Positions 23,355 through 38,638 of a DNA stretch of 64,000 nucleotides are shown in pieces (position 1 is the stretch's first letter; every line of letters begins with the position of its first letter). A program made the translations under genes and the position numbers. The notes under the pieces are model-generated. The model did no database searches, was not told the origin of the DNA, and was given only the letters and a program-made list of their open reading frames with translations. The DNA is taken from assembly GCA_002300355.1 (NCBI GenBank), contig NSGV01000001.1:310001-374000 (forward strand), written 5' to 3'. Source of the DNA: Streptomyces sp. TLI_235 (GTDB lineage: Bacteria > Actinomycetota > Actinomycetes > Streptomycetales > Streptomycetaceae).

Positions 23355-24716
23355 TCAGCCGCTGGTGGTGTCCAGGGGGTTGTCGGGGATCCAGGAGCCG
23401 TGGATTCCGGCGGGGACCCGGCGCGGGAGGTGGACGGTGGCTATCCGGTCGAGGCCGGACGCGTCGAGGACCAGGAGCTGGGAGGCGTCCTGCTTGAGGT
23501 CGGAGACGACGGTCAGGAGGTAGCCGTCGTCCTCTCGGGTCGCTCCGGCGGCGGGGACGAAGACGGCTTCGCCGGGCAGGCGGGCGTCGCCGGCCTGGTG
23601 GATGCGGCGGGCGCCGGTGGTGCGGTCGTACTTGACCACGCCGTAGGTGCCGAAGCCCTTCTCGTCGGGGAAGGAGACGGCGTACTGGTAGCGGTTCTCG
23701 GAGCCGAGGTAGGCCTCGTTGAGGGTCGGGAACTCCACCGGCAGGTCGTCGATGATCTGCTCGTCGACGGTGCCGGCCGCCGTGTCGATCACCCAGCGGC
23801 GGGTGTAGGAACGGGCGTTGGGCTCGGCGCCGCGGCCGGGGGCGCCCACCCACCAGTTCCAGGAGAGGTGGAAGCCCTCGCGGTCCACGGTGGGACCCTC
23901 CAGGACGATGCGGCCCCGGCCGTCCTCGTAGGCGTTGGCGACGTGCAGCATGTTGCCCGGTTCGATGGAGAACCAGCGCACCTGCCGGGCGCCGTCCGCT
24001 CCGCGCGGCATGACACCGATGCGAGCGGGCTGGGCATCGCTCCAGCCGTAGGGGATACCGGAGTGCTCGTTCGGGTCGAAGGTGACGTTGCCCTCGACGA
24101 ACACGACGTGGCGGCGGGTGATCGCGAAGTCGTGCTTGAGCGAGGCGGTCGCGCCGGGGACCTCCGTGCTGTGGACGATCTCCCCCTTGGCGTCGGCGAC
24201 GTAGTACACCAGGTGGGGCGGGAAGGGCGAGGACCCGAAGAAGTGGAGCTCCCCCGTCACCGGGTCCTCCTTGGGGTGGGCGGTCATCGCGGTGCGCAGC
24301 TTGCCGTCGAAGTCGAAGGCGCCGACGGTGTCCAGCTCCCGGGTGAGCTCGAAGGGGAAGTTCGACTCGCACAGGGCGAGCAGCCGGCCGGCGTGCTCGA
24401 TGACGTGGGTGCCGGCGGCGCTGGCGGTCAGGTCGGGTCCGTGCTCGGTCATGTAGGGGGCGCCGTCGAGGGCGGGGGTGTGCACCCAGCGGTTGCGGTA
24501 CCACTCGGCGCGGCCCTCGCGCAGGCGGATGCCGTGGACCATGCCGCTGCCCTTGAACCAGTGGGTGGGGGTGACGCCGGGCTTGGGGTTGTGGCCGTTG
24601 CGGAGCAGCCGTCCCGTCAGCTCCGGGGGCAGGGTTCCCTCGACGGTGAGTTCGGTGGCGGTGATCTCGTCGGCGACGGGGGTGTAGTGGCCGGTCAGGT
24701 AGGGCTTGCCGGTCAT
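23355..24716 (-). CDS. carotenoid oxygenase family protein
   Basis: A 453-residue non-haem iron dioxygenase of the carotenoid-cleavage / lignostilbene type. The seven-blade propeller pattern is evident. Candidate iron-ligand His residues occur in K-H-D-F-A-I-T (about 178), M-L-H-V-A-N-A-Y (about 245) and the terminal G-I-H-G-S-W-I-P (about 444), with another around P-P-H-L-V-Y-Y. It cleaves a conjugated double bond to two carbonyl products; whether the substrate is a carotenoid, apocarotenoid or stilbene is not visible. ATG 24716 precedes the MFS stop side of the cluster. It may be co-transcribed with the SnoaL-like gene. Confidence 0.88.
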   Translation of the reverse strand: MTGKPYLTGHYTPVADEITATELTVEGTLPPELTGRLLRNGHNPKPGVTPTHWFKGSGMVHGIRLREGRAEWYRNRWVHTPALDGAPYMTEHGPDLTASAAGTHVIEHAGRLLALCESNFPFELTRELDTVGAFDFDGKLRTAMTAHPKEDPVTGELHFFGSSPFPPHLVYYVADAKGEIVHSTEVPGATASLKHDFAITRRHVVFVEGNVTFDPNEHSGIPYGWSDAQPARIGVMPRGADGARQVRWFSIEPGNMLHVANAYEDGRGRIVLEGPTVDREGFHLSWNWWVGAPGRGAEPNARSYTRRWVIDTAAGTVDEQIIDDLPVEFPTLNEAYLGSENRYQYAVSFPDEKGFGTYGVVKYDRTTGARRIHQAGDARLPGEAVFVPAAGATREDDGYLLTVVSDLKQDASQLLVLDASGLDRIATVHLPRRVPAGIHGSWIPDNPLDTTSG

Positions 24717-24797: not shown

Positions 24798-26288
24798 TCA
24801 CCGGGTCCGCGAGGCCGTGCGGGGCCGCGGGGCCGGCGGGTCGGGCGCCGGGCGCGCGGGTGTGGAGCGGTCCGCGGTGCGGCGGGTGAGGAGCGCCGCG
24901 AGGAGGGCCGTTGCGGCCAGGACGGCGGCCGAGGCGGTGAACGCGGCCCGGTAGCCGGCGGTGAGCGCCTCCAGGTGGGGCTGGTGCGTGGCGGCGTGGG
25001 CGGTGACGGATCCGGCGAGGGTCGCCAGGGCGGCGAGGCCGACCGCACCGCCGACCTGGCGGGTGGTGTTGACCAGTCCGCCGGCCAGGCCTGCATCCTG
25101 GGGCGGGAGGCCGTCCACGGCGAACGCGGTGAGCTGGACGAAAGCGATGCTCAGGCCGAGACCGACCAGGATGCTCGGACCCAGGACGTCGGCGAGGTAG
25201 CTCCCGTCGGCGCCGACCCGTGACAGCCACAGCAGGCCCGCGGCCTCGGTGAGCAGGGCGGCGGCCACGGTCGCGGCGGCGCCGATGCGCCGGGAGACGC
25301 GCGGGGCGAGCGCGGATCCGAGCATGTTCGCCGCAGCGAGCGGGAGTTGGCCGGCCCCGGTGGCCAGTGGACCGGAGCCGAGCACCTGCTGCTGGTAGAG
25401 CGGCAGGAAGAAGAACAGGGCGATCCACACCGACCCCAGCAGGGCCATCAGCAGGTTCCCGGCGGCCACCCGGCCGACGGTGAGCAGCCGCGGCGGTATC
25501 AGCGCGTTCGGCCGGCGGAGCTCGATCACCGCGAAGGCGGCGAGCAGGACGGCGGCGGCGCCGAGGGCGCCCAGCACCCGGACGTCGCCCCAGCCGGCGT
25601 CGCGTGCGGTGGTCAGCCCCCAGACCAGGCAGGTCAGGGCAAGGGTGACGGTGGCAGTGCCCAGCAGGTCGAACCGCCCCGCCCTGACGCCGGCCGCCGG
25701 TGGGACGAGCACCACGGCGGCGGCCAGGACCAGCACCGTACCGAACCCGACACAGTGGAAGATCCAAGGCCAGCCCCATGCCTGGGTCAGCACGCCGCCC
25801 AGCAGGACACCGCCCGCTCCTCCCGCGCCGGAGACCGCGCCCCACACCCCCAGGGCGCGGCCGCGCCCGGGACCGGCCGGGAACAGGTTCATCGCCAGGG
25901 CGAGCGCGGCCGGCGCGATGGCGGCGGCGCCGAGGCCCTGCACCGCGCGGGCAGCGATCAGCACCCCCGGCGCGTGGGCCAGTCCCGCTGCCGTCGAGCC
26001 GGCCGCGAACAGCCCGAGGCCGGCGATCAGCACCCGGCGGCGACCGAACAGGTCACCCGCCCGTCCGCCCGCCAGGAGCAGCGCTCCGAACGCCAGACCA
26101 TAGGCGTTGACCACCCAGGTGGTGCCGCCCTCCGACAGGCCGACACCGGCGCGGATCTGCGGCAGCGCGACGTTCACGATCGAGGTGGCGAGCATGACGG
26201 TGAACTGGGCTGCGGCGAGGACCGTGAGCACGGCCGCCGGCCGCCGGGCGGGCGGCGTCCGCCCCGGCTGTGTGCGTGGGAGGTTCAT
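24798..26288 (-). CDS. MFS transporter, DHA2 (EmrB/QacA) family
   Basis: A 496-residue efflux protein with about 14 helices. V-N-V-A-L-P-Q-I in helix 1, G-R-A-G-D-L-F-G-R-R-R after helix 2 and the antiporter motif C around G-A-V-S-G-A-G-G-A-G-G-V-L-L-G-G place it in the proton-driven DHA2 drug exporters. ATG 26288 lacks a clear ribosome site, but the first helix begins 18 residues later. It lies 81 bp upstream of the carotenoid oxygenase gene on the same strand and could export its product. No neighbouring TetR/MarR regulator was found. Confidence 0.88.
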   Translation of the reverse strand: MNLPRTQPGRTPPARRPAAVLTVLAAAQFTVMLATSIVNVALPQIRAGVGLSEGGTTWVVNAYGLAFGALLLAGGRAGDLFGRRRVLIAGLGLFAAGSTAAGLAHAPGVLIAARAVQGLGAAAIAPAALALAMNLFPAGPGRGRALGVWGAVSGAGGAGGVLLGGVLTQAWGWPWIFHCVGFGTVLVLAAAVVLVPPAAGVRAGRFDLLGTATVTLALTCLVWGLTTARDAGWGDVRVLGALGAAAVLLAAFAVIELRRPNALIPPRLLTVGRVAAGNLLMALLGSVWIALFFFLPLYQQQVLGSGPLATGAGQLPLAAANMLGSALAPRVSRRIGAAATVAAALLTEAAGLLWLSRVGADGSYLADVLGPSILVGLGLSIAFVQLTAFAVDGLPPQDAGLAGGLVNTTRQVGGAVGLAALATLAGSVTAHAATHQPHLEALTAGYRAAFTASAAVLAATALLAALLTRRTADRSTPARPAPDPPAPRPRTASRTR

Positions 26289-29853: not shown

Positions 29854-30840
29854 TCAGCAGGACGGCACCGCCGCCGGGCGGGTGGGGATCAGCGGCGAGG
29901 CCACGACGCGGCGGCGGTTGGCCTGGCGGAACTCCTCGGCCACCCGTCCGCAGCCGGCGCACTCGTCCAGGTGCCGGGCCAGCTCCCGTCCGCGCCGTCG
30001 GCCGGGCCGCCGCACGGCGCCGGTCAGCAGCGAGGTGAAGTAGCCGCACTCCAGGGCAGTGCCCTCGTCGACGTTCGCCCGCAGGTACGCCTCGCGGAGG
30101 CCCGCGCGGGCACGGGCGGCCAGCGAGCGAACCCCGCTCGGCGTCATGCTCATCCGCTGGGCGACGACGGCGGCCGACTCGCCCTCCACCACGAAGAACC
30201 AGAGCAGCACCTGCCACCGCTCGGGCAGGGACCGGTAGGCCTTGGCGACCAGCGACGCCTCCTCGGCGGCGAGCAGGGCACCCTCGGTCTCCGCCTCGTC
30301 GGCGAGGTGCTCGGCCCAGCTGTGGAAGTCCTCGGGCAGCAGGACGCGGTCGGTGGTCTGGGCGCTCCACTCCATCGCGGTGCGGCGGACGCAGGCCTTC
30401 AGGTACGGGCGCCAGGCGTGCCGGGGGCCGCGTCCGCGGGCGACGGAGAGGTAGGTGCTGGCGTAGGCCTCGGCGGCGAGGTCCTGGGCGGTCTGCGGGT
30501 CGCGGCAGAAGCGGCGGGCGTAGGCGAGGACGGCGCCGTGGTGGCGGGTGAACACCTCGGCCATCACCTCCCGGATCCGGGAGCCGCCGGTGGTGGTCGG
30601 GTTGGCGGCGAGCGCCGCCGCGAGTTCGGCGTCGCTCAGCGCGCTCAGCTCTGCGTCGCCCCGCTCGGCGTCGTTCGGCGCGCTCGGCTCTGCGGCGCTC
30701 GGCGCACTCGGTCCGGTGTCGTTCGGCGCGCTCGGCTCTGCGGCGCTCGGCGCACTCGATCCGGTGTCGCTCGCCGCACTCGGTCCGGCGGCGCTCAGCG
30801 CGCTCGGACCGCTCTTGCGGGTGCTGGTTCGAAGGGTCAC
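29854..30840 (-). CDS. ECF-type sigma factor with C-terminal anti-sigma-like zinc finger
   Basis: A 328-residue protein: an acidic Ser/Pro/Ala repeat N-terminus (1-85), sigma region 2 (about 95-165, R-R-F-C-R-D-P-Q-T-A-Q-D-L-A-A-E-A-Y) and region 4 (about 205-265, S-L-P-E-R-W-Q-V-L-L-W; H-T-H around A-A-V-V-A-Q-R-M-S-M-T). The tail contains H-L-D-E-C-A-G-C, the H-x3-C-x2-C motif of zf-HC2 anti-sigma domains. GTG 30840 follows GAGGAGG. A built-in zinc finger suggests self-inhibition or redox control. The adjacent out-of-frame hydrophobic segment suggests a lost membrane anchor. Confidence 0.82.
   Translation of the reverse strand: MTLRTSTRKSGPSALSAAGPSAASDTGSSAPSAAEPSAPNDTGPSAPSAAEPSAPNDAERGDAELSALSDAELAAALAANPTTTGGSRIREVMAEVFTRHHGAVLAYARRFCRDPQTAQDLAAEAYASTYLSVARGRGPRHAWRPYLKACVRRTAMEWSAQTTDRVLLPEDFHSWAEHLADEAETEGALLAAEEASLVAKAYRSLPERWQVLLWFFVVEGESAAVVAQRMSMTPSGVRSLAARARAGLREAYLRANVDEGTALECGYFTSLLTGAVRRPGRRRGRELARHLDECAGCGRVAEEFRQANRRRVVASPLIPTRPAAVPSC
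30673..30768 (-). repeat. tandem 48-bp repeat in the sigma-factor N-terminus
   Basis: Two 48-bp units (30673-30720 and 30721-30768) differ at one base; degenerate copies follow to about 30810. Each unit encodes 16 residues with the pattern A-P-S-A-A-E-P-S-A-P-N-D. A slippage-prone, probably disordered segment. Confidence 0.8.
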
Positions 30841-31311: not shown

Positions 31312-31362
31312 ACAGGGCGAGGGTTCCCGCCGGCCCCGTGCCGGTGGGAACCCTCGCCCTGT
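31312..31362. terminator. strong 17-bp stem-loop at the end of the redox operon
   Basis: Bases 31312-31328 pair perfectly with 31346-31362, with an extra inner GCCGG/CCGG stem. It lies 19 bp past the stop at 31381 and ends the six-gene minus-strand operon. It would work in both directions. Confidence 0.8.
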
Positions 31363-31380
31363 CGTCGTTGTTGTCCCTGG

Positions 31381-31857
31381 TCACCCGCTTCCGCTGTGCG
31401 TGTGTGCTCCGGTGTGGTCGGCCCCACCGACCACCGAACCGCCGAGCAGACCGTGCAGGAGGTCAGCCGTGGCGTCCGAGAGGACGACCACCCATCCGTC
31501 ACCGACGAGGTACGAACCCCCGTACGCCTTCGCCTCGGTGAGCCAGGCGTCCTGGGCCGGGCCGGCCGGGAAGGTGGCGATCCAGATCTCCTCCCCGCCC
31601 GAGGTGCACAGGCCCTGCCTGAGGTCGGCCGCGTCGGCGGTGATCTCGGCCGTGCAGCCGATCCGCTTGGCCAGGTCCTCGACCGAGCTCCGTGCGGGGC
31701 GCTGCGCCGCCTGTGACGGCGCAGCCAGCCCGCCTGCTCCCCAGAGGAGTTCCGCGCTCCCCAGGAGGAGCAGGACGAGCAGCGCGGCCCATTTCAGCCC
31801 GGTTCGGAGGGTGCGCTCGCTGCCGACCGGTGCGAGGGCGGCGGCGTGCGACCTCAC
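31381..31857 (-). CDS. small anchored extracytoplasmic protein at the end of the redox operon
   Basis: A 158-residue protein. A hydrophobic helix (about 20-43, W-A-A-L-L-V-L-L-L-L-G) is followed by a compact external domain (about 60-145) with two Cys, in R-I-G-C-T-A-E and G-L-C-T-S, that could form a disulfide. It ends in a His/Gly/Ser tail. Start GTG 31857 overlaps the stop of the secreted repeat-protein gene (GTGA), so translation is coupled. I do not recognise the domain. Context implies a partner in the surface electron-transfer or redox system. Confidence 0.65.
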   Translation of the reverse strand: MRSHAAALAPVGSERTLRTGLKWAALLVLLLLGSAELLWGAGGLAAPSQAAQRPARSSVEDLAKRIGCTAEITADAADLRQGLCTSGGEEIWIATFPAGPAQDAWLTEAKAYGGSYLVGDGWVVVLSDATADLLHGLLGGSVVGGADHTGAHTHSGSG

Positions 31858-32873
31858 TTGCCGGACGCCGCCTTGCCCTGCGGGTTGATGGCCGTCCACG
31901 CCCCGTTGCCCATGCCGTTGCCGAGGGCGTCGCCGTAGCCCTGGTCACCGGTGTAGAGGTAGGCCGGGGTGCAGTTGATGCTCAGCTGCCAGCTGCCGTC
32001 CGACCGCTGCATCTTGCCGATCAGCTTCGGGTCGACGCCCTTGATCTTCTTGGGGTCCACGGGGGGCGCGGGCGTCCAGGTCTTGAGGCACTCGCCCTCG
32101 CAGTTGGAGCGCATCGGCCAGGCGGTGTCCTTGCCGAAGTGGTAGAGGGTGCGGCCGTAGGCGTCCACCATGATCGGGCCAAGCTGGGGGTGGACGAAGA
32201 CGGAGATCTGCATGCCCGCCGGGGGCTGCTGGGTGGGCTGCGCCATGGTGGTGGCCGGGGCGGGGGCGGTCGGGGCGGTGGACGTCTGGGTGCCGGTGCC
32301 GCCGGCCTTGGCCTTGGAGCCGTCGGGCGCCAGGGCGTGCCAGGTGCCGCCCACGCCTTCGCCCTTGGTGTCGCCGGGTGCGCTGTCCTGTGCGTAGCGG
32401 TAGGCGGGCCATCCGCCGACCGTCAGCTGGCGGCTGCCGTCGGCGCGGGTGATCTCGCCGAGCTTGCTCGCGTCGACGCCGGTGCCCGCGGAGGTGCTGT
32501 CGTCGTTGAGGACCGGCGGCCAGGTGGTGGCGCAGGTGCCGGAGCAGTTGGACGCCGGCGGCTTGGCGGTGTCCTTGTCGAACCGGTAGAGGGTGAAGCC
32601 CTGGCCGTCCGTCAGGACGGAGCCGAGCTTCTCGTCGACCCGGACGGAGAGTTGTCCGCCGGGCTTGCCGGCGGTGCCGCTGCCGGAAGCGCCGGTGGAG
32701 CCGTAGTCGCCGTAGGCGCCGGCGGGGGCGGGCGTCGCCCCGGCCAGCTGGCTGGTGTCGGACTTGCCGTTGGACGGGCTCGCACTGCTGTTGGCACTGC
32801 CGAAGGCCGCCATGAGGACGAGGCCCGCGAGCAGGAGGCAGACCGCCACGAGGCCGTATCGTTTCATCGTCAA
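31854..32873 (-). CDS. secreted two-repeat protein, SCO0930 / COG4315 (Lipoprotein_15) family
   Basis: A 339-residue exported protein. A signal peptide (about 3-25) and flexible linker precede two copies of the 'secreted repeat of unknown function' (about 75-180 and 218-325). Each has a G-x-T-L-Y-x-F start, a Cys pair followed by a Trp (N-C-S-G-T-C-A-T-T-W-P-P and N-C-E-G-E-C-L-K-T-W-T-P) and a G-x-x-Y-L/R-Y end. Homologues are normally lipoproteins, but no lipobox Cys follows the signal here (L-M-A-A-F-G-S-A). Biochemical role unknown. It sits beside a membrane cytochrome and an NADH-binding subunit, which suggests redox work. Confidence 0.85.
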   Translation of the reverse strand: MTMKRYGLVAVCLLLAGLVLMAAFGSANSSASPSNGKSDTSQLAGATPAPAGAYGDYGSTGASGSGTAGKPGGQLSVRVDEKLGSVLTDGQGFTLYRFDKDTAKPPASNCSGTCATTWPPVLNDDSTSAGTGVDASKLGEITRADGSRQLTVGGWPAYRYAQDSAPGDTKGEGVGGTWHALAPDGSKAKAGGTGTQTSTAPTAPAPATTMAQPTQQPPAGMQISVFVHPQLGPIMVDAYGRTLYHFGKDTAWPMRSNCEGECLKTWTPAPPVDPKKIKGVDPKLIGKMQRSDGSWQLSINCTPAYLYTGDQGYGDALGNGMGNGAWTAINPQGKAASGK

Positions 32874-32986
32874 GATCTTCCTTGCCTTTCCATCGGTTGA
32901 GCCTGGGCTTGTCGAGGGATCGCTGGGTCAAGATCGGTGGGTGAAGGGGTGGTTCGAGGGAGTGGGCGGCCCGGGACGGGCGGCGC

Positions 32987-34423
32987 TCACTGGATCCGCA
33001 GCGCCAGTGCGGGGCACCGGTCGACCGCGCGGGCGGCCTGCTGGAGCAGCTGCGGCGGGACGGGCATCACGGCGGCGGAGGGAAAGCCGTCCGCCGCCAG
33101 GCTGATGACCTCGGGCAGCACGCTGGTGCACAGCCCGTGGGCCTCGCAGAGGGTCCAGTCCACGACGATGGTTCCGGCGCTCTCCATGACCGGCATCGGG
33201 AGCACGTCCTGGACGGGCCGGCCGCAGCCGTACTGGTAGGAGTGCATCTGGAGGTCGTCGTCGAAGACTTCCAGGGCGGAGGCGACGAAGCGGGAGGCGG
33301 CGTCGGGGTGGCTGCACGCGCCCCGCTTGGTGACCGCCCGCATCCGGGTCTCGACCCGGTCGAGGGCTGCCCGGCCGCCGCCCCGGACGACCTCCTCCAG
33401 TTCCTTGACCAGGGCGGGCAGTCCGAGGTAGCACGGTCCGCACTGGCCGGCGGTCTCGTCGGCCATCCAGCGGGCGACCCGGAGTGCTTCGCCCAGCGGG
33501 CAGGTGGTGGCCGGCAGCGGCAGGATCGCGCCGGCGCCGAGCGCACCGCCGAGGCTCTGCAGGGACTGGCGGGACACCTGGGCCGTCCGGGCCGCCTCGG
33601 GGGTCAGCCAGGTGCCGTGGTAGCCGCCGGTCAGGACGCCCTGGCCGACGTCCATGTCGAACAGTGCGAGCAGGTCGACGAGCGGGACACCGGTGGGTGT
33701 CTCCACGACTTGGGAGCCGGCCAGGGTGAGCAGGACCGTCCCGGGCTCGGACGGGGTTCCGACCTCGCGGTAGGGCAGTGCCCCGAGCCGGGCCGCGACC
33801 GCGAGTTGCGCGTACGTCTCGGCGTTGGACAGCAGGGTGGGCAGTCCCCCGACTCCGCTGTCGCTGGTCCGTACGCCGCCGCCGCGCGGCAGGGCGATCC
33901 CGCTGGTAATGCCGCGGGCCAGCGAGCTCCCCTCGCCGGAGACGAAGCGCTCGGGCAGCCGGGCGACGGAGACCGGCAGCCGGGTGGACCGCCGTTCGTC
34001 CAGTGCCCTGCGCAGGGACTGCTCGGTGTCGGCGCGGGTGACGCCCAGCACCACCTGTTCGGCGTCCAGTGCCTCGGCGGCCAGCAGGGCGCCGTCCAGC
34101 ACGAGGTGGGGGGTGCGCAGCAGCAGTGCCGCGTCCTTCAGACAACTCGGTTCTCCTTCCGTTCCGTTGACCACCACGACCGGGCGGGCCCGGCGCCGGG
34201 CGGCCGACTTGACGACGGCCCGGATCTTCCTGGCGAACGGGAAGCCGGCCCCGCCGCGGCCGCGCAGGTTGACGTTCTCGGACAGTTCGGCGACCTCCTC
34301 GGCGGACATGGCCGGCATCCCGCCGTGGACGACCAGGTGTGCCCGGTGATCGAGCCGCTCGCTGTGTTCCAGGCCTGCGAACAGCACCGGTCGGCCGATC
34401 CAGGCGATGGGTGCGCCGCTCAT
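32987..34423 (-). CDS. NuoF-like NADH/FMN-binding protein fused to a ferredoxin
   Basis: A 478-residue cytoplasmic protein. Its N-terminal two-thirds resemble the FMN/NADH-binding subunit of complex I: G-R-G-G-A-G-F-P (residues 55-62), N-G-T-E-G-E-P (86-92) and an SLBB-like middle. The iron-sulfur region reads A-G-Q-C-G-P-C (Cys 328, 331) plus Cys 370. The first of the four N3-cluster cysteines of NuoF is Ala here. A C-terminal ferredoxin follows (C-E-A-H-G-L-C, Cys 426/432, and D-R-C-P, Cys 470), a 3Fe-4S-like single-cluster pattern. It probably oxidises NAD(P)H and passes electrons to the overlapping membrane cytochrome gene product (ATGA at 34420-34423). Confidence 0.85.
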   Translation of the reverse strand: MSGAPIAWIGRPVLFAGLEHSERLDHRAHLVVHGGMPAMSAEEVAELSENVNLRGRGGAGFPFARKIRAVVKSAARRRARPVVVVNGTEGEPSCLKDAALLLRTPHLVLDGALLAAEALDAEQVVLGVTRADTEQSLRRALDERRSTRLPVSVARLPERFVSGEGSSLARGITSGIALPRGGGVRTSDSGVGGLPTLLSNAETYAQLAVAARLGALPYREVGTPSEPGTVLLTLAGSQVVETPTGVPLVDLLALFDMDVGQGVLTGGYHGTWLTPEAARTAQVSRQSLQSLGGALGAGAILPLPATTCPLGEALRVARWMADETAGQCGPCYLGLPALVKELEEVVRGGGRAALDRVETRMRAVTKRGACSHPDAASRFVASALEVFDDDLQMHSYQYGCGRPVQDVLPMPVMESAGTIVVDWTLCEAHGLCTSVLPEVISLAADGFPSAAVMPVPPQLLQQAARAVDRCPALALRIQ

Positions 34424-35271
34424 CCGTCCTGCCGTCGTCGTCCGGTTCCGGCGCCGACCACGGGCCGGCCGGGGGGCTCGGGCCGGACCTGCGCGGCGGT
34501 CCGGCGCGGGGCGCCGCGGTCCTGGAGGGCCATCCGCAGGCCGAGGACGGCGATCACGCCCACCACGGCCACGCTGTAGAGGACGGACACCCAGGGGGCG
34601 GGCAGCCGGCCCGCGTTCAGGCCGTGGACCAGTGCGGCGCCCCAGGCCGGGTAGGCGCAGATGTGGATGATCCGCCACCGGCGTGCCGAGCCCGTCCGGG
34701 CCAGCAGGCCGCGGGCCGCCCCGGCGAGGGCCACGGCCAGCAGCACGTATCCGGCCAGCACGCCCAGTCCGAACACCACCGGCTTGTTCGGGTCGGTGAA
34801 GGGGACGAAGGCCGCGAGTGCGCCGATCTGGTCCTGGATGAGGTTCATCCACACGTGCAGGACGAGGAAGACCACGCCGGCGACGCCCATCGTCCGGTGG
34901 ATCGTCTGGGCGACCAGGCGGTGGACCGGGTGCAGCAGCAGCCGGTCGGTCGCCGCGAGCCCCCACAGGACGGCGGAGGAGAACGACACCAGGGCGATCA
35001 CCCCGGCCGCCACACCGAGGAACGCCTGCAGTGCGCCGTTGACGGTCACGGCCACCAGGCCCAGGCCCACCGCGAACAGCGGGAGGACGGCCCGCACCAT
35101 CGGTTTGCGCCGGCCGCCGCCTTCCGGCCGGTCGCCCGCGGCACCGCGCGGCGCCTGCCGCCCGGGGCCGGCCAGGCCTGGCCGGACCGCGCGGTCCGCC
35201 CGCCGTGCCCGCCGCGCTCGCGCCGGCCCGGCGGCCGAATGCCACGATCGGCGTCCTTGACCTGTCAACAT
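34420..35271 (-). CDS. ferric-reductase-like transmembrane b-type cytochrome
   Basis: A 283-residue membrane protein. An Arg/Gly-rich cytoplasmic start (1-57) precedes six predicted helices (about 60-245). Helix-borne His pairs (H-R-L-V-A-Q-T-I-H-R and V-L-H-V-W in the first half; I-I-H-I-C-A-Y and L-V-H-G-L in the second) are spaced as in haem b ligands of ferric-reductase-like (FRD/YedZ-type) proteins. There is no FAD or NADPH domain, so it must receive electrons from a partner, most plausibly the overlapping NuoF-ferredoxin protein. ATG 35271 has GGAGGG 7 bases upstream; ATG 35295 is a weaker alternative. Electrons would leave on the outer face. Confidence 0.82.
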   Translation of the reverse strand: MLTGQGRRSWHSAAGPARARRARRADRAVRPGLAGPGRQAPRGAAGDRPEGGGRRKPMVRAVLPLFAVGLGLVAVTVNGALQAFLGVAAGVIALVSFSSAVLWGLAATDRLLLHPVHRLVAQTIHRTMGVAGVVFLVLHVWMNLIQDQIGALAAFVPFTDPNKPVVFGLGVLAGYVLLAVALAGAARGLLARTGSARRWRIIHICAYPAWGAALVHGLNAGRLPAPWVSVLYSVAVVGVIAVLGLRMALQDRGAPRRTAAQVRPEPPGRPVVGAGTGRRRQDG

Positions 35272-35392
35272 CGCTGAGCCCTCCGGCCTCGTCATTGCCC
35301 TGCTCGAAAGGGGCGCCCGGGTGTTCCGGGCGGGCCGCGCGCGACGGGCGGCGGCCCCGGCCGCCCGGGTCTCTCCCGGCGGCCTGTGCGGG

Positions 35393-36778
35393 TCAGCCGC
35401 AGCGGCGACCCTCGTTGATGCAGCTCACCATCTGGTCCAGCAGGTTCCGGTTCATCACGTTGATGAAGTCCCCGTGGTCGGTGACCGGGTTGTGCAGCTG
35501 CTCGGGGAAGCTGTCGACGGCGAACTTCACCCCGGACGGCACGTCGTAGGCGACGCGCTCCACCAGCTGCGGGATGTTCCGGAAGTTCTTCGGGCAGCTG
35601 CCGTTCTTGGAGAACGCGGTGTGGCTGCGGTGGTTGGCGCTGTCGATGTTCTTGCCGTCCCAGCAGTCCGGGAACTTCAGGGTCCGCACCACCCGGCTGC
35701 CGTTCGGGCAGATCGGGTACTTGTCGGCGAGCTGGCGGTCCTCGAAGCCGGTGCAGCTCCACGAGGCGTGGGCGTTGGCCGGGCCGTTGGTGAGGGCCTT
35801 GGCGTCGCCGGTGATGATCCGCAGGAAGCGCGTCATCGGCTGGACGGGCTTCCCGTTGGGCGAGTTGTAGGTGATGCCGGCCTCGGCGGGCTGCAGGATG
35901 CGTCCCACATTGCGGTCCTTGCCGCCGCCGGGTGCCTTGGCGTCCTTGTCGTTGGTGCCGTCGAGGAGCCGCAGCACGGGCCAGTAGTAGGCGGACTGGT
36001 CGCCGTTGGAGCAGGTGGTGCCGGCGCCGGCGAGCCGGTTGTTGGAGGAGAAGCCGTCGGTGATGCGGTTGCCCACGTAGTCGTGCATGTGGTGGGCGCC
36101 GTTGCTCACCCCGGGGGCGACGATCACGTTGTCGGGGTTGAGGTGGCGGTTCTCGTTGCGTCCGCAGCGGGAGGTGAAGGTGCCGGTGGCCGACCCGCTG
36201 CGGGCGGGCTTGGCGGTGTTCGGGGCGACGGACCTGATGTCGACGAAGCCGCGGCCGAGGTTCTGCTTCCCGCCGGACGAGGACTTGCTGCGGTCGGCCG
36301 CTGCGCTCTGCGACTCGGGGGTGAAGTCCCGGGCGGAGGCGTCGACCACCAGGTCGCGCCGGATCGCGCAGTTCGCCAGGGCGGAGACGTCCTGGGGCAG
36401 GCCGGCGTCCGGCCCGGCGCTCGCCTTGATCTTCTGCAGGGTCGCGGAGCGCTTGGCGGCCAGGTCGCCCATGACACGCTTCTCGCTGCCGGAGCCCTGC
36501 TCCGAGAGGCTGCGGTACGCGTCGGCGACCTGGACGTCGAGGTCGGCGAGGTTGCGGTCGACGTCCGGCTGGGCGGTCTCCGGGACCGTCTCCAGGCTCG
36601 CGCCGACGTCCGCGCAGGCCACGGTGCCCATCTGGGCGGAGGCCTGCTGCGAGCGCCACGGGCGCTGCCCGGCGAAGGCCGCCGCGGCGACCACCGACGC
36701 ACCGCCGACCGCCAGTACCCCGGCGAGCAGCAGGGCGAGCATTCTCCGCCCGGCCGTGTCACGTTTGTGAATCCTCAT
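35393..36778 (-). CDS. secreted DUF1996 protein
   Basis: A 461-residue exported protein with a signal peptide (about 10-36). An N-terminal helical region (about 50-165) precedes a DUF1996 domain (about 200-455). The family motif N-P-D-N-V-I-V-A-P-G then G-A-H-H-M-H-D-Y-V-G-N is intact, and P-D-C-W-D-G-K-N near 380 and several Cys pairs are present. DUF1996 is common in fungi and actinomycetes and has no proven activity; its conserved His/Asp residues suggest metal binding or hydrolysis. It is second in the same-strand run feeding into the redox genes, with a 121-bp gap to the cytochrome gene. Confidence 0.85.
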   Translation of the reverse strand: MRIHKRDTAGRRMLALLLAGVLAVGGASVVAAAAFAGQRPWRSQQASAQMGTVACADVGASLETVPETAQPDVDRNLADLDVQVADAYRSLSEQGSGSEKRVMGDLAAKRSATLQKIKASAGPDAGLPQDVSALANCAIRRDLVVDASARDFTPESQSAAADRSKSSSGGKQNLGRGFVDIRSVAPNTAKPARSGSATGTFTSRCGRNENRHLNPDNVIVAPGVSNGAHHMHDYVGNRITDGFSSNNRLAGAGTTCSNGDQSAYYWPVLRLLDGTNDKDAKAPGGGKDRNVGRILQPAEAGITYNSPNGKPVQPMTRFLRIITGDAKALTNGPANAHASWSCTGFEDRQLADKYPICPNGSRVVRTLKFPDCWDGKNIDSANHRSHTAFSKNGSCPKNFRNIPQLVERVAYDVPSGVKFAVDSFPEQLHNPVTDHGDFINVMNRNLLDQMVSCINEGRRCG

Positions 36779-36847
36779 ATTGGCACCTTCGAAACGGGAT
36801 CGGGCCTGTCGGACAGGCCGTGGACATCGTTCTCTCTGTGGCAGGTA

Positions 36848-37579
36848 TCATCTCCGTGTCGCCCCGGCCGCCGGACTCGGCGAGGCCGATCCGGCCGGAA
36901 ATCCGGAAAGGCCGCCGTAATTCACCAGACGGGTGTCCTCCAGGACCGTCATGTGGTCCAGGACGGTGGTGTTGGCCATCGTTGCGAGATCGCGGACCGT
37001 CGAATTCTGTGTACTGGCCCGCACCTGGGCCACGACGGCGAATACCTGGCCGTGGGCATTGCGCACGATGTTGGCGAACTGCCGGTCGAACTCGGGGCCC
37101 TGGGCCTCGTCCAGCTGTTTCAGCCAGGCCTTCTGCTGGGCGGACGGCTCGTCCGGGACCTCCAGTCCGAGCGTCGCGGCCGCCTCCAGCGTCGCCCGGT
37201 CGAGGTCGGTGTGCCCCTCGATCAGGTGCTCGCCGGCGGTCTTGACCTCGGGCGTTCCGCCCTTGGCGAGGGCCATCCGTCCTGCGGGTATCTCCCACAG
37301 GCCGGCCAGCCGGACCCGTTTGACGAAGTCCCGGTCGAGCGGCGTCAGCGGGCCGGTCGGTGTCTGCATCGTTCCCGGCGCGTCGTCCGCCCGTGGCACG
37401 CGGTACGAGCCCGCCGAGCGCACGACGGGGACGACCAGGGCCGCTGCGGTGGACATCATGGCCAGAATCAGGAGAAGAGTGGCGAACGACCGCGGAAATC
37501 GGCTCACCTTCGGAATTCCGTAGGCAGCTGTTCCGAGTCCGCGTTTCTTCCTCGAAGATGACATCGGCTTCCTCATCAT
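36848..37579 (-). CDS. DUF4142 ferritin-like exported protein
   Basis: A 243-residue protein. A membrane/signal helix (about 33-55) is followed by a four-helix DUF4142 domain (about 75-220) with L-D-R-D-F-V-K-R-V, G-E-H-L-I-E-G-H-T-D-L and N-T-T-V-L-D-H-M-T-V-L-E-D. The His residues in the second and fourth helices resemble ferritin-like metal or haem sites, but full iron ligands are not evident. The usual role (cell-surface stress protein) is unproven. There are tandem in-frame ATGs at 37579/37576 and an ATG at 37564 with a close AGGAAG; I kept the first. It is the promoter-proximal gene of the six-gene run. Confidence 0.78.
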   Translation of the reverse strand: MMRKPMSSSRKKRGLGTAAYGIPKVSRFPRSFATLLLILAMMSTAAALVVPVVRSAGSYRVPRADDAPGTMQTPTGPLTPLDRDFVKRVRLAGLWEIPAGRMALAKGGTPEVKTAGEHLIEGHTDLDRATLEAAATLGLEVPDEPSAQQKAWLKQLDEAQGPEFDRQFANIVRNAHGQVFAVVAQVRASTQNSTVRDLATMANTTVLDHMTVLEDTRLVNYGGLSGFPAGSASPSPAAGATRR

Positions 37580-37771: not shown

Positions 37772-38638
37772 TCAGCTACCGATGGAGCGGGCGTCCCGCC
37801 GGGGCTCGGACGCCGCGCGGGCGGGCAGTTCCTCCGCCCGGTGGCGCAGCCGGGCGCATTCGGCCGCCATGCCGTGGATCTTCAGTGCCAGCAGGATCTC
37901 GAACCGTGCCTGCGGGGTGCGCAGGCTGCCGCCGAAGATCCGCTCCAGCTTCCGGAGCCGGTAGCGGACGGTCTGCGGGTGGATGCGCAGCAGTTGGGCC
38001 GCCTCGGCCGCACCGCCGCCCTCCAGCCAGGCGAGCAGGGTCTGCTCCATCCGCTCGCGCTGGCGTGGCGTCATGTCGCTCAGTCTGCCGAGCCATTTGG
38101 CGGACAGGTGGCCGGCCAGCAGCGGGTCCTGGAAGAGCACCACCTTGGCCAGATGGTCCTCGACGAAGAGGAGTTCGCCGGCGGTGCCCCACTGCGGGGT
38201 GAGCGCCAGCAGGGTGCGGGCCCACCGCAGCGAGGCTCCGGCGTCGGTGCGCGCCACCACGGGGCCGGCCACCGCCTGCCTGCCCTGGAGCCAGCGGACG
38301 AGCGCCTGGTGCGTTCCCGGTGTCGGGTCCGGGATCAGCAGGTACGGTTCCGGTCCGTGCAGGTAGGCGACGATCTTCGCGGCGGAGAGCCCCGGCGGGG
38401 GCGGGCCCGGTGCGGTGGAGAGCGCCACCGCCTGGACGGTCGCCGGGCCGCCCCGGGGAGCGACGCTGTTGACCGGGCGGGGTGCCCGGCGGACCGCTGG
38501 CTCGCCGCGCCCCCCGCGGCGTCCGGTTCCCGCGCGGCTTCCGGTTCCCGCGCTGCCGCCGCTGCCCCCGCGACCGCCGTGTCCGGCGCGACCGCTCGGT
38601 GCGGCACGGCCGCCGCCGGGATGGGTCAGCGCATCCAC
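37772..38638 (-). CDS. PucR/CdaR-type helix-turn-helix regulator
   Basis: A 288-residue regulator from GTG 38638, which has GGGGGAGG upstream. The N-terminus (1-60) is Gly/Arg-rich and disordered. A middle domain (about 70-200, G-P-E-P-Y-L-L-I-P-D-P-T) precedes a C-terminal PucR-type HTH (about 205-265: L-L-A-W-L-E-G-G-G-A-A-E-A-A-Q-L-L-R-I-H-P-Q-T-V-R-Y-R-L). Such regulators respond to purines, amino acids or unknown signals. It lies 192 bp upstream of the DUF4142 gene on the same strand and is divergent from the LysR gene, so it is a candidate controller of the redox operon. Confidence 0.8.
   Translation of the reverse strand: MDALTHPGGGRAAPSGRAGHGGRGGSGGSAGTGSRAGTGRRGGRGEPAVRRAPRPVNSVAPRGGPATVQAVALSTAPGPPPPGLSAAKIVAYLHGPEPYLLIPDPTPGTHQALVRWLQGRQAVAGPVVARTDAGASLRWARTLLALTPQWGTAGELLFVEDHLAKVVLFQDPLLAGHLSAKWLGRLSDMTPRQRERMEQTLLAWLEGGGAAEAAQLLRIHPQTVRYRLRKLERIFGGSLRTPQARFEILLALKIHGMAAECARLRHRAEELPARAASEPRRDARSIGS

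Follow-up and report, generated by a model that had tools for sequence, protein, structure and literature searches.

A conserved six-gene set of Streptomyces sp. TLI_235 with a Ferric_reduct-like and a NuoF-like protein: a candidate electron-export unit

We analyzed a window of 64,000 nucleotides of Streptomyces sp. TLI_235 (GenBank assembly GCA_002300355.1, contig NSGV01000001.1, positions 310,001 to 374,000 of the forward strand), in which a first-pass annotation, made from the sequence letters, had proposed a trans-membrane electron-transfer operon of six genes. Six open reading frames were confirmed on the minus strand between 31381 and 37579; we call them A to F. Gene A (36848..37579; the start may be 37459) encodes an exported or anchored DUF4142 protein and gene B (35393..36778; the start may be 36742) a secreted DUF1996 protein; C (34420..35295; the start may be 35100) encodes a Ferric_reduct-like putative membrane cytochrome; D (32987..34423) a NuoF-like flavin mononucleotide (FMN)/iron-sulfur protein fused to a ferredoxin; E (31854..32867) an SCO0930-family protein; and F (31381..31857, with a longer start at 31899) a small membrane-anchored protein with a conserved Cys pair. 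Genes C and D overlap by 4 bases and so do E and F if F starts at 31857; the gaps are 69 bases between A and B, at least 97 between B and C (the start of C being uncertain) and 119 between D and E. The annotated layout, with its DUF4142 and DUF1996 proteins, its fusion gene overlapping the cytochrome gene and its anchored Cys-pair protein overlapping E, thus agrees with the reading frames and Pfam scores. On the same strand, 3′ of F, a terminator-like hairpin is present (31312..31362; −58 kcal/mol, z −8.5 versus 200 shuffles). The 'strong terminator' reported there holds as far as the stem is concerned; its T tail is weak, and a consensus terminator scan did not list it.

The sole Pfam match of protein C, up to an E-value of 0.1, was Ferric_reduct (PF01794), with 24.1 bits, below the curated cut-off of 28. 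No flavin or NAD domain was found, as expected for the annotated heme-b cytochrome without a flavin domain of its own. Four histidines (133/147 and 211/224) were invariant in 25 of 25 rows; the members of the two pairs are spaced by 14 and 13 residues, which matches the spacing in NADPH oxidases. Histidine pairs in the membrane domain are common to C, the NADPH oxidase/FRE proteins and MsrQ; NADPH oxidase/FRE proteins, in contrast to C, carry a fused flavin adenine dinucleotide (FAD)/NAD domain, and no gene resembling MsrP was found among those scanned. We place C in the Ferric_reduct family only weakly, by its low score and its conserved histidines, and the proposed heme has support at the level of its predicted ligand residues.

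Protein D exceeded the Pfam cut-offs for three domains: Complex1_51K (99.3 bits, cut-off 31.2), NADH_4Fe-4S (PF10589; 57.1, cut-off 23.5) and Fer4_15 (45.0, cut-off 22.4); its ferredoxin part carries the motif CxxHGxC...CP. It aligns with NuoF/HydB over query residues 36–434 at most. FMN-domain motifs (GRGGAGFP and NGxEGEP) and an iron-sulfur domain, with three N3-type cysteines retained, are in common with NuoF/HydB of complex I and hydrogenases. Unlike those proteins, D lacks the first N3 cysteine (AGQCGPC, seen in at least 95% of 34 D rows, where HydB rows read SCGKCxxC), is changed in a stretch that we take to contact NAD (GGVR where HydB 7p5h reads KPPF), and scored 137.2 against the NCBIfam NuoF equivalog, far under the cut-off of 558.65. 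With these changes to an N3 cysteine and to the presumed NAD site, NADH is a doubtful donor for D, and the annotated entry of electrons from NAD(P)H lost ground accordingly. The altered stretch need not mean that NAD binding is lost, because HydB 8a6t, the best match of D among those listed, also differs there (RPPRTNE). By Pfam, the rest of the set includes no subunit of complex I or of a hydrogenase.

A hydrophobic N-terminal segment is present in each of the window's A, B, E and F. Protein A matched DUF4142 with 83.8 bits and B matched DUF1996 with 90.1 bits (curated cut-off 27 in both cases). A has a His and a Glu invariant in the alignment; B has an HxH motif and ten cysteines, nine of them invariant and one nearly so in 53 rows, including loci without C and D. 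The predicted model of B was weak (mean predicted local distance difference test score, pLDDT, 64.4) and had no structural match at an E-value of 0.001; its VIA rows involved mainly the N-terminal helices (residues 40–130), with Z values reaching 6.2, which chance often produces. Protein E, annotated as having two repeats, instead has Lipoprotein_15 in four stretches (169.6 bits, cut-off 24.4) forming two domains; CxxxC was found in 34 of 34 rows, E having two such motifs and a third cysteine in the second domain. Its score against the NCBIfam SCO0930 family lipoprotein (NF040526) was 343.9, above the cut-off of 275; unlike that lipoprotein, E lacks a lipobox throughout the window's clade. The model of E (md29c3e68aabc) was confident in both domains (blocks 84–97), the stretches ahead of the domains and between the two being of low confidence; Foldseek found no structure matching it at an E-value of 0.001 and VIA none among 794 PDB chains at Z ≥2, which does not by itself prove a new fold. 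A phmmer search of PDB gave no credible relative for A, B, C or E. Protein F matched no Pfam family; besides its Cys pair it has a His-rich tail, the last 40 residues holding on average 4.04 His (25 rows) versus 0.89 expected.

The exported proteins offered no recognizable cofactor for the acceptor that had been proposed. The CxxCH motif was absent from every row of A–F. The pattern [ST]GA[TS], the core of the ApbE motif, was absent from all 33 sequences of A and matched 8 of the 35 of B, 8 of the 34 of E and 1 of the 25 of F; the window's E has one match, DYGSTGAS, in the linker before its first domain, and the longer form occurred in 2 of 34 rows. A conserved ApbE motif was not found in A, B, E or F. 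Among the six proteins there was no Pfam match to an FMN-binding domain up to an E-value of 0.1, and none to the methionine sulfoxide reductase or thioredoxin families.

To count the set elsewhere, we used loci found through D, B or E (L139–L144 included). After removal of repeats on D there were 67 loci with C and a strong D match; requiring >6.5 kb of sequence ahead of C and >4.5 kb beyond D left 54, of which two (L085 and L086, taken in by locus range) belong to a leuS-linked class described below. In all 52 remaining operon loci (15 from the window's genus) A, B, C, D and E are on the strand of D; F is present in 36 and absent in 16. The 13 loci dropped by the flank filter end too near the gene set for counting; none of these lacks an A–E gene where the contig reaches (L069 is without A at its left edge, L214 without E at its right edge).

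A genome-wide search for A was made in the window's genus; B was searched for there and also across 296 genomes of the phylum. Among 70 genomes of the genus, A matched in 17 (E-value 1e-20), B in 23 (1e-60; 17 full-length or nearly so, six domain-length from residue 157 on) and D in 30 (1e-60), 17 of them at ≥59% identity. The sets of 17 for A, B and operon-type D coincide exactly, each genome having either all three or none of them, a count that ignores kinship among the genomes. In one genome (G168) a single piece of B covers residues 160–449 only, and at its locus (L102) B, D and E are all in pieces; we did not use this as evidence of shared decay, because a sequencing error is possible. 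At an E-value of 1e-30, B was found in 8 of the 296 genomes of the phylum, 7 of them Streptomycetaceae, some with a stand-alone B. A lack of joint conservation, which would have counted against the first-pass annotation, did not emerge: at least the five genes A–E are inherited together in Kitasatospora and many Streptomyces. In a tree of D (58 rows) the operon class formed one group with weak support (87/59; 88% of 200 bootstrap trees), the class linked to ApbE was separate with full support, and the named rows nearest to the window were Kitasatospora, which is probably the window's genus.

Two regulatory genes accompany the set, both outside the range 31312–37579 given in the first-pass annotation. 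Upstream, on the minus strand, lies R (37772..38428), the C-terminal part of a PucR-type regulator (Pfam HTH_30, 62.6 bits); its homologue in L068 aligns to the window from residue 225 on only, and the N-terminal part of the Streptomyces homologue was not found at the window locus. Downstream, also on the minus strand, is S (29854..30840, the frame being open upstream to 31257), a sigma factor of the extracytoplasmic function (ECF) type with 34.3 bits for Sigma70_r2 (cut-off 24) and 22.4 for r4_2, below its cut-off of 25.7. R is near the gene set in 48 of the 52 operon loci, in 12 of these 48 on D's strand, and S is present in 22 of the 52. The usual order in the genus is R-A-B-C-D-E-F-S on a single strand; elsewhere it is mostly A-B(-S), then R on the opposite strand, then C-D-E(-F). 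As the set consists of two units with R between them in most other loci, a single transcript may be limited to Kitasatospora. Two loci (L103 and L218) retain all six genes in altered order. Genes for ApbE or FMN-binding proteins might be expected in the 2–3 kb that separate B from C in Streptomyces loci; in the loci read there were none, this stretch holding a PucR regulator and sometimes a sigma factor.

A palindrome, TTGACCTGTCAA, at 35257–35268 near the start of C was considered as an operator and rejected: its exact form occurs in two other operon loci only (L090 and L092) among those searched, and its single match within the window is no more than chance. Farther off, at 23355–24716 and 24798–26231 of the window, an RPE65-family gene (carotenoid-oxygenase type) adjoins a gene for a transporter of the major facilitator superfamily.

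Parts of the set also occur by themselves. The 80 relatives best matching B, of at least 540 in named genomes, comprised 34 with C and D, 42 without and 4 at a contig edge; ranking by likeness to B favors operon copies. In 21 of the 42 loci without C and D, genes B and F are adjacent and converge, which ties the two together even where C and D are missing. These convergent pairs are Streptomyces loci L187, L188, L190–L192, L195–L198, L200, L201, L203–L208, L210–L212 and L223. The neighbors of stand-alone B (a two-component system, glutamine synthetase and others) gave no functional lead. The pair C-D is found without A, B, E and F beside a leuS cluster in nine Streptomyces-type loci (L085, L086, L109–L113, L126 and L127; leuS was confirmed by Pfam in L086), and without leuS in L087 and L104–L108. 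In L085 and L086 the leuS-type C has a long Pro/Gly-rich tail, and D of L086 reads GAAAS where the window has GEGSS.

In a more distant class of C-D loci (L114–L125) the ferredoxin is a separate match and D is about 40–45% identical. A gene of the ApbE cluster is in the same stretch as the C/D relatives in 11 of these 12 loci (not in L120), ApbE being confirmed by Pfam in L114 only and assigned by blast clustering in the others. A two-component system and a b561-like membrane protein accompany many of these pairs. The C proteins of L114, L115 and L121 are extended by a further domain at the C-terminus, which matched no Pfam family in L114, the one scanned.

In all five loci read around stand-alone SCO0930-type genes (L134–L138), neither A–D nor F was present, and the neighbors of such genes gave no functional lead. 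Equating E with SCO0930 itself, in order to borrow its published expression, was considered and dropped, since stand-alone copies exist; SCO0930 is by name a relative of E of the stand-alone type and its expression is not transferable to E. SCO0930 is up by 4.4 and 4.3 log2 units in the second mycelium of S. coelicolor at 48 and 72 h (PMC3610822), is listed as changed in work on afsS (PMC2267785) and is listed in the SigU regulon (PMC6295645).

The two proteins E and F changed their anchoring in parallel. A lipobox-like cysteine was found in E in none of 15 distinct sequences of the window's Kitasatospora clade versus 40 of 44 others, and in F in none of 15 versus 23 of 29. The clade was defined as L088–L101, L146–L148 and the window, with L102 left out; L103, which belongs to the genus but branches elsewhere, was grouped with the other sequences (SAGC in its E escapes the pattern, and its F has no box). 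An earlier, narrower pattern gave 15 of 47 versus 0 of 18 in the clade for E; for F, counting stand-alone copies as well, it gave 33 of 50 versus 0 of 18. Several of the sequences missed have a start that was called too late or a box lying just beyond the pattern. By these sequence patterns both E and F have lost their lipid anchor in this clade, with the hydrophobic N-terminal segment left, which fits a shared role at the membrane.

The known systems closest to the set are the MsrQ-like flavinylation clusters. Meheust et al. 2021 (PMC8238504) count 1797 of them, which are widely conserved among Actinobacteria; 31 include a NuoF-like protein. Our locus resembles these in having a Ferric_reduct-like membrane protein that adjoins a NuoF-like (PF10589) protein. 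The clusters have ApbE and an FMN-binding protein, neither of which was found at the window locus; a Pfam scan found no ApbE among A–F or the flanking genes scanned. As these two defining features are missing, we did not file the set as an MsrQ-like flavinylation cluster. It further differs in the ferredoxin fused to D, in its exported partners (DUF4142, DUF1996, the SCO0930-type protein and F) and in its PucR and ECF-type regulators, several loci of the ApbE class having a two-component system instead. The set appears to work like MsrQ-like/NuoF-like electron export, as a variant with a differing exported side. In the window's genome ApbE matches fall in one open frame at C1:2.33 Mb, where (C1:2332972-2335325 of G000) a strong Ferric_reduct match is followed by ApbE about 1.3 kb downstream; this locus may be the genome's ordinary flavinylation system. 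We found no description of the gene set in open-licence literature. The novelty suggested for the whole does not extend to the kind of trans-membrane part, which is already in print as MsrQ-like plus NuoF-like clusters (PMC8238504).

We propose that the locus is one inherited electron-export unit which uses no ApbE-attached flavin as its outer carrier, a reading for which we see the case as evenly balanced. From domain knowledge and the conserved residues we infer that D, in the cytosol, would take up electrons via its FMN and iron-sulfur domains, either from NAD(P)H or, as likely, from the ferredoxin pool through its fused ferredoxin domain, and that the two His pairs of C would hold two b hemes carrying these electrons across the membrane. 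Outside, E and A would accept the electrons or spend them on holding a metal or disulfide site in the reduced state, and B and F would be partner or substrate-binding surface proteins; the route, the way in which electrons run along it and the parts played by A, B, E and F are proposed in the same conditional sense. Having no ApbE-attached flavin as outer carrier would set the unit apart from its known relatives. A bolder form dispenses with both flavinylated proteins and c-type cytochromes as the outer carrier: the double-domain CxxxC protein E would belong to a new class of redox or metal carriers outside the cytoplasm and would supply a DUF1996/DUF4142 surface complex specific to the lineage. 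This form we consider unlikely.

Several observations weigh against the proposed unit. The score of C is below the family cut-off, and D lacks one cluster cysteine and is altered at the presumed NAD site. Since A, B, E and F show neither CxxCH nor conservation of the ApbE motif, no known cofactor can be assigned to the outer half of the path. F is absent from 16 of the operon loci; the counts of presence in the genus take no account of kinship; in most operon loci outside Kitasatospora the set is divided by a divergent regulator; and, as B-F and C-D occur without the rest, the link within the set could be looser.

A narrower form of the proposed unit would be a surface metal reductase, in which Fe(III) or Cu(II) bound by A, E and the His-rich tail of F is reduced for uptake or detoxification. 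The His-rich tails and the invariant His and Glu of A are in favor of it. CxxxC is a copper motif in other families. Against this form, the set encodes no metal transporter. PMC8238504 places the iron transporter VIT1 in some MsrQ-like clusters; PMC4738358 reports that deletions of fungal DUF1996 genes give higher sensitivity to stress and to several metal ions, but not to Cu2+. Taken together, this specialization seems to us rather unlikely.

There could also be no single system, C-D-E being one unit and A-B(-F) a separate surface unit that adjoins it for shared regulation only. The arrangement as two units with a divergent regulator in most loci outside Kitasatospora, and the finding of B-F and C-D alone, would be natural if this were so. 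What makes such a split improbable is the all-or-none presence in 17 of 70 genomes together with the retention of the set through reordering in L103 and L218.

A role in thiol or methionine maintenance, keeping Cys or Met of exported B and E reduced in the manner of MsrPQ or DsbD, would suit the conserved cysteines of B and the two CxxxC motifs and third cysteine of E; MsrQ is moreover homologous to the MsrQ-like proteins (PMC8238504). B, however, retains its cysteines in loci without C and D as well, and none of the six proteins matched a methionine sulfoxide reductase or thioredoxin family; we regard this role as distinctly unlikely. Extracellular production of superoxide or peroxide in the manner of NADPH oxidases, suggested by the His-pair spacing of C, is very improbable given that no NAD/FAD domain was found in C and the exported set gives no pointer to oxygen.

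If the proposed electron-export unit is real, DUF1996, DUF4142 and Lipoprotein_15 proteins would gain a common, testable setting as exported partners of a defined electron source, and export of the MsrQ/NuoF type would be able to operate without ApbE flavinylation. Having both carriers of the set (17 of 70 genomes) and non-carriers, a single genus offers natural comparisons.

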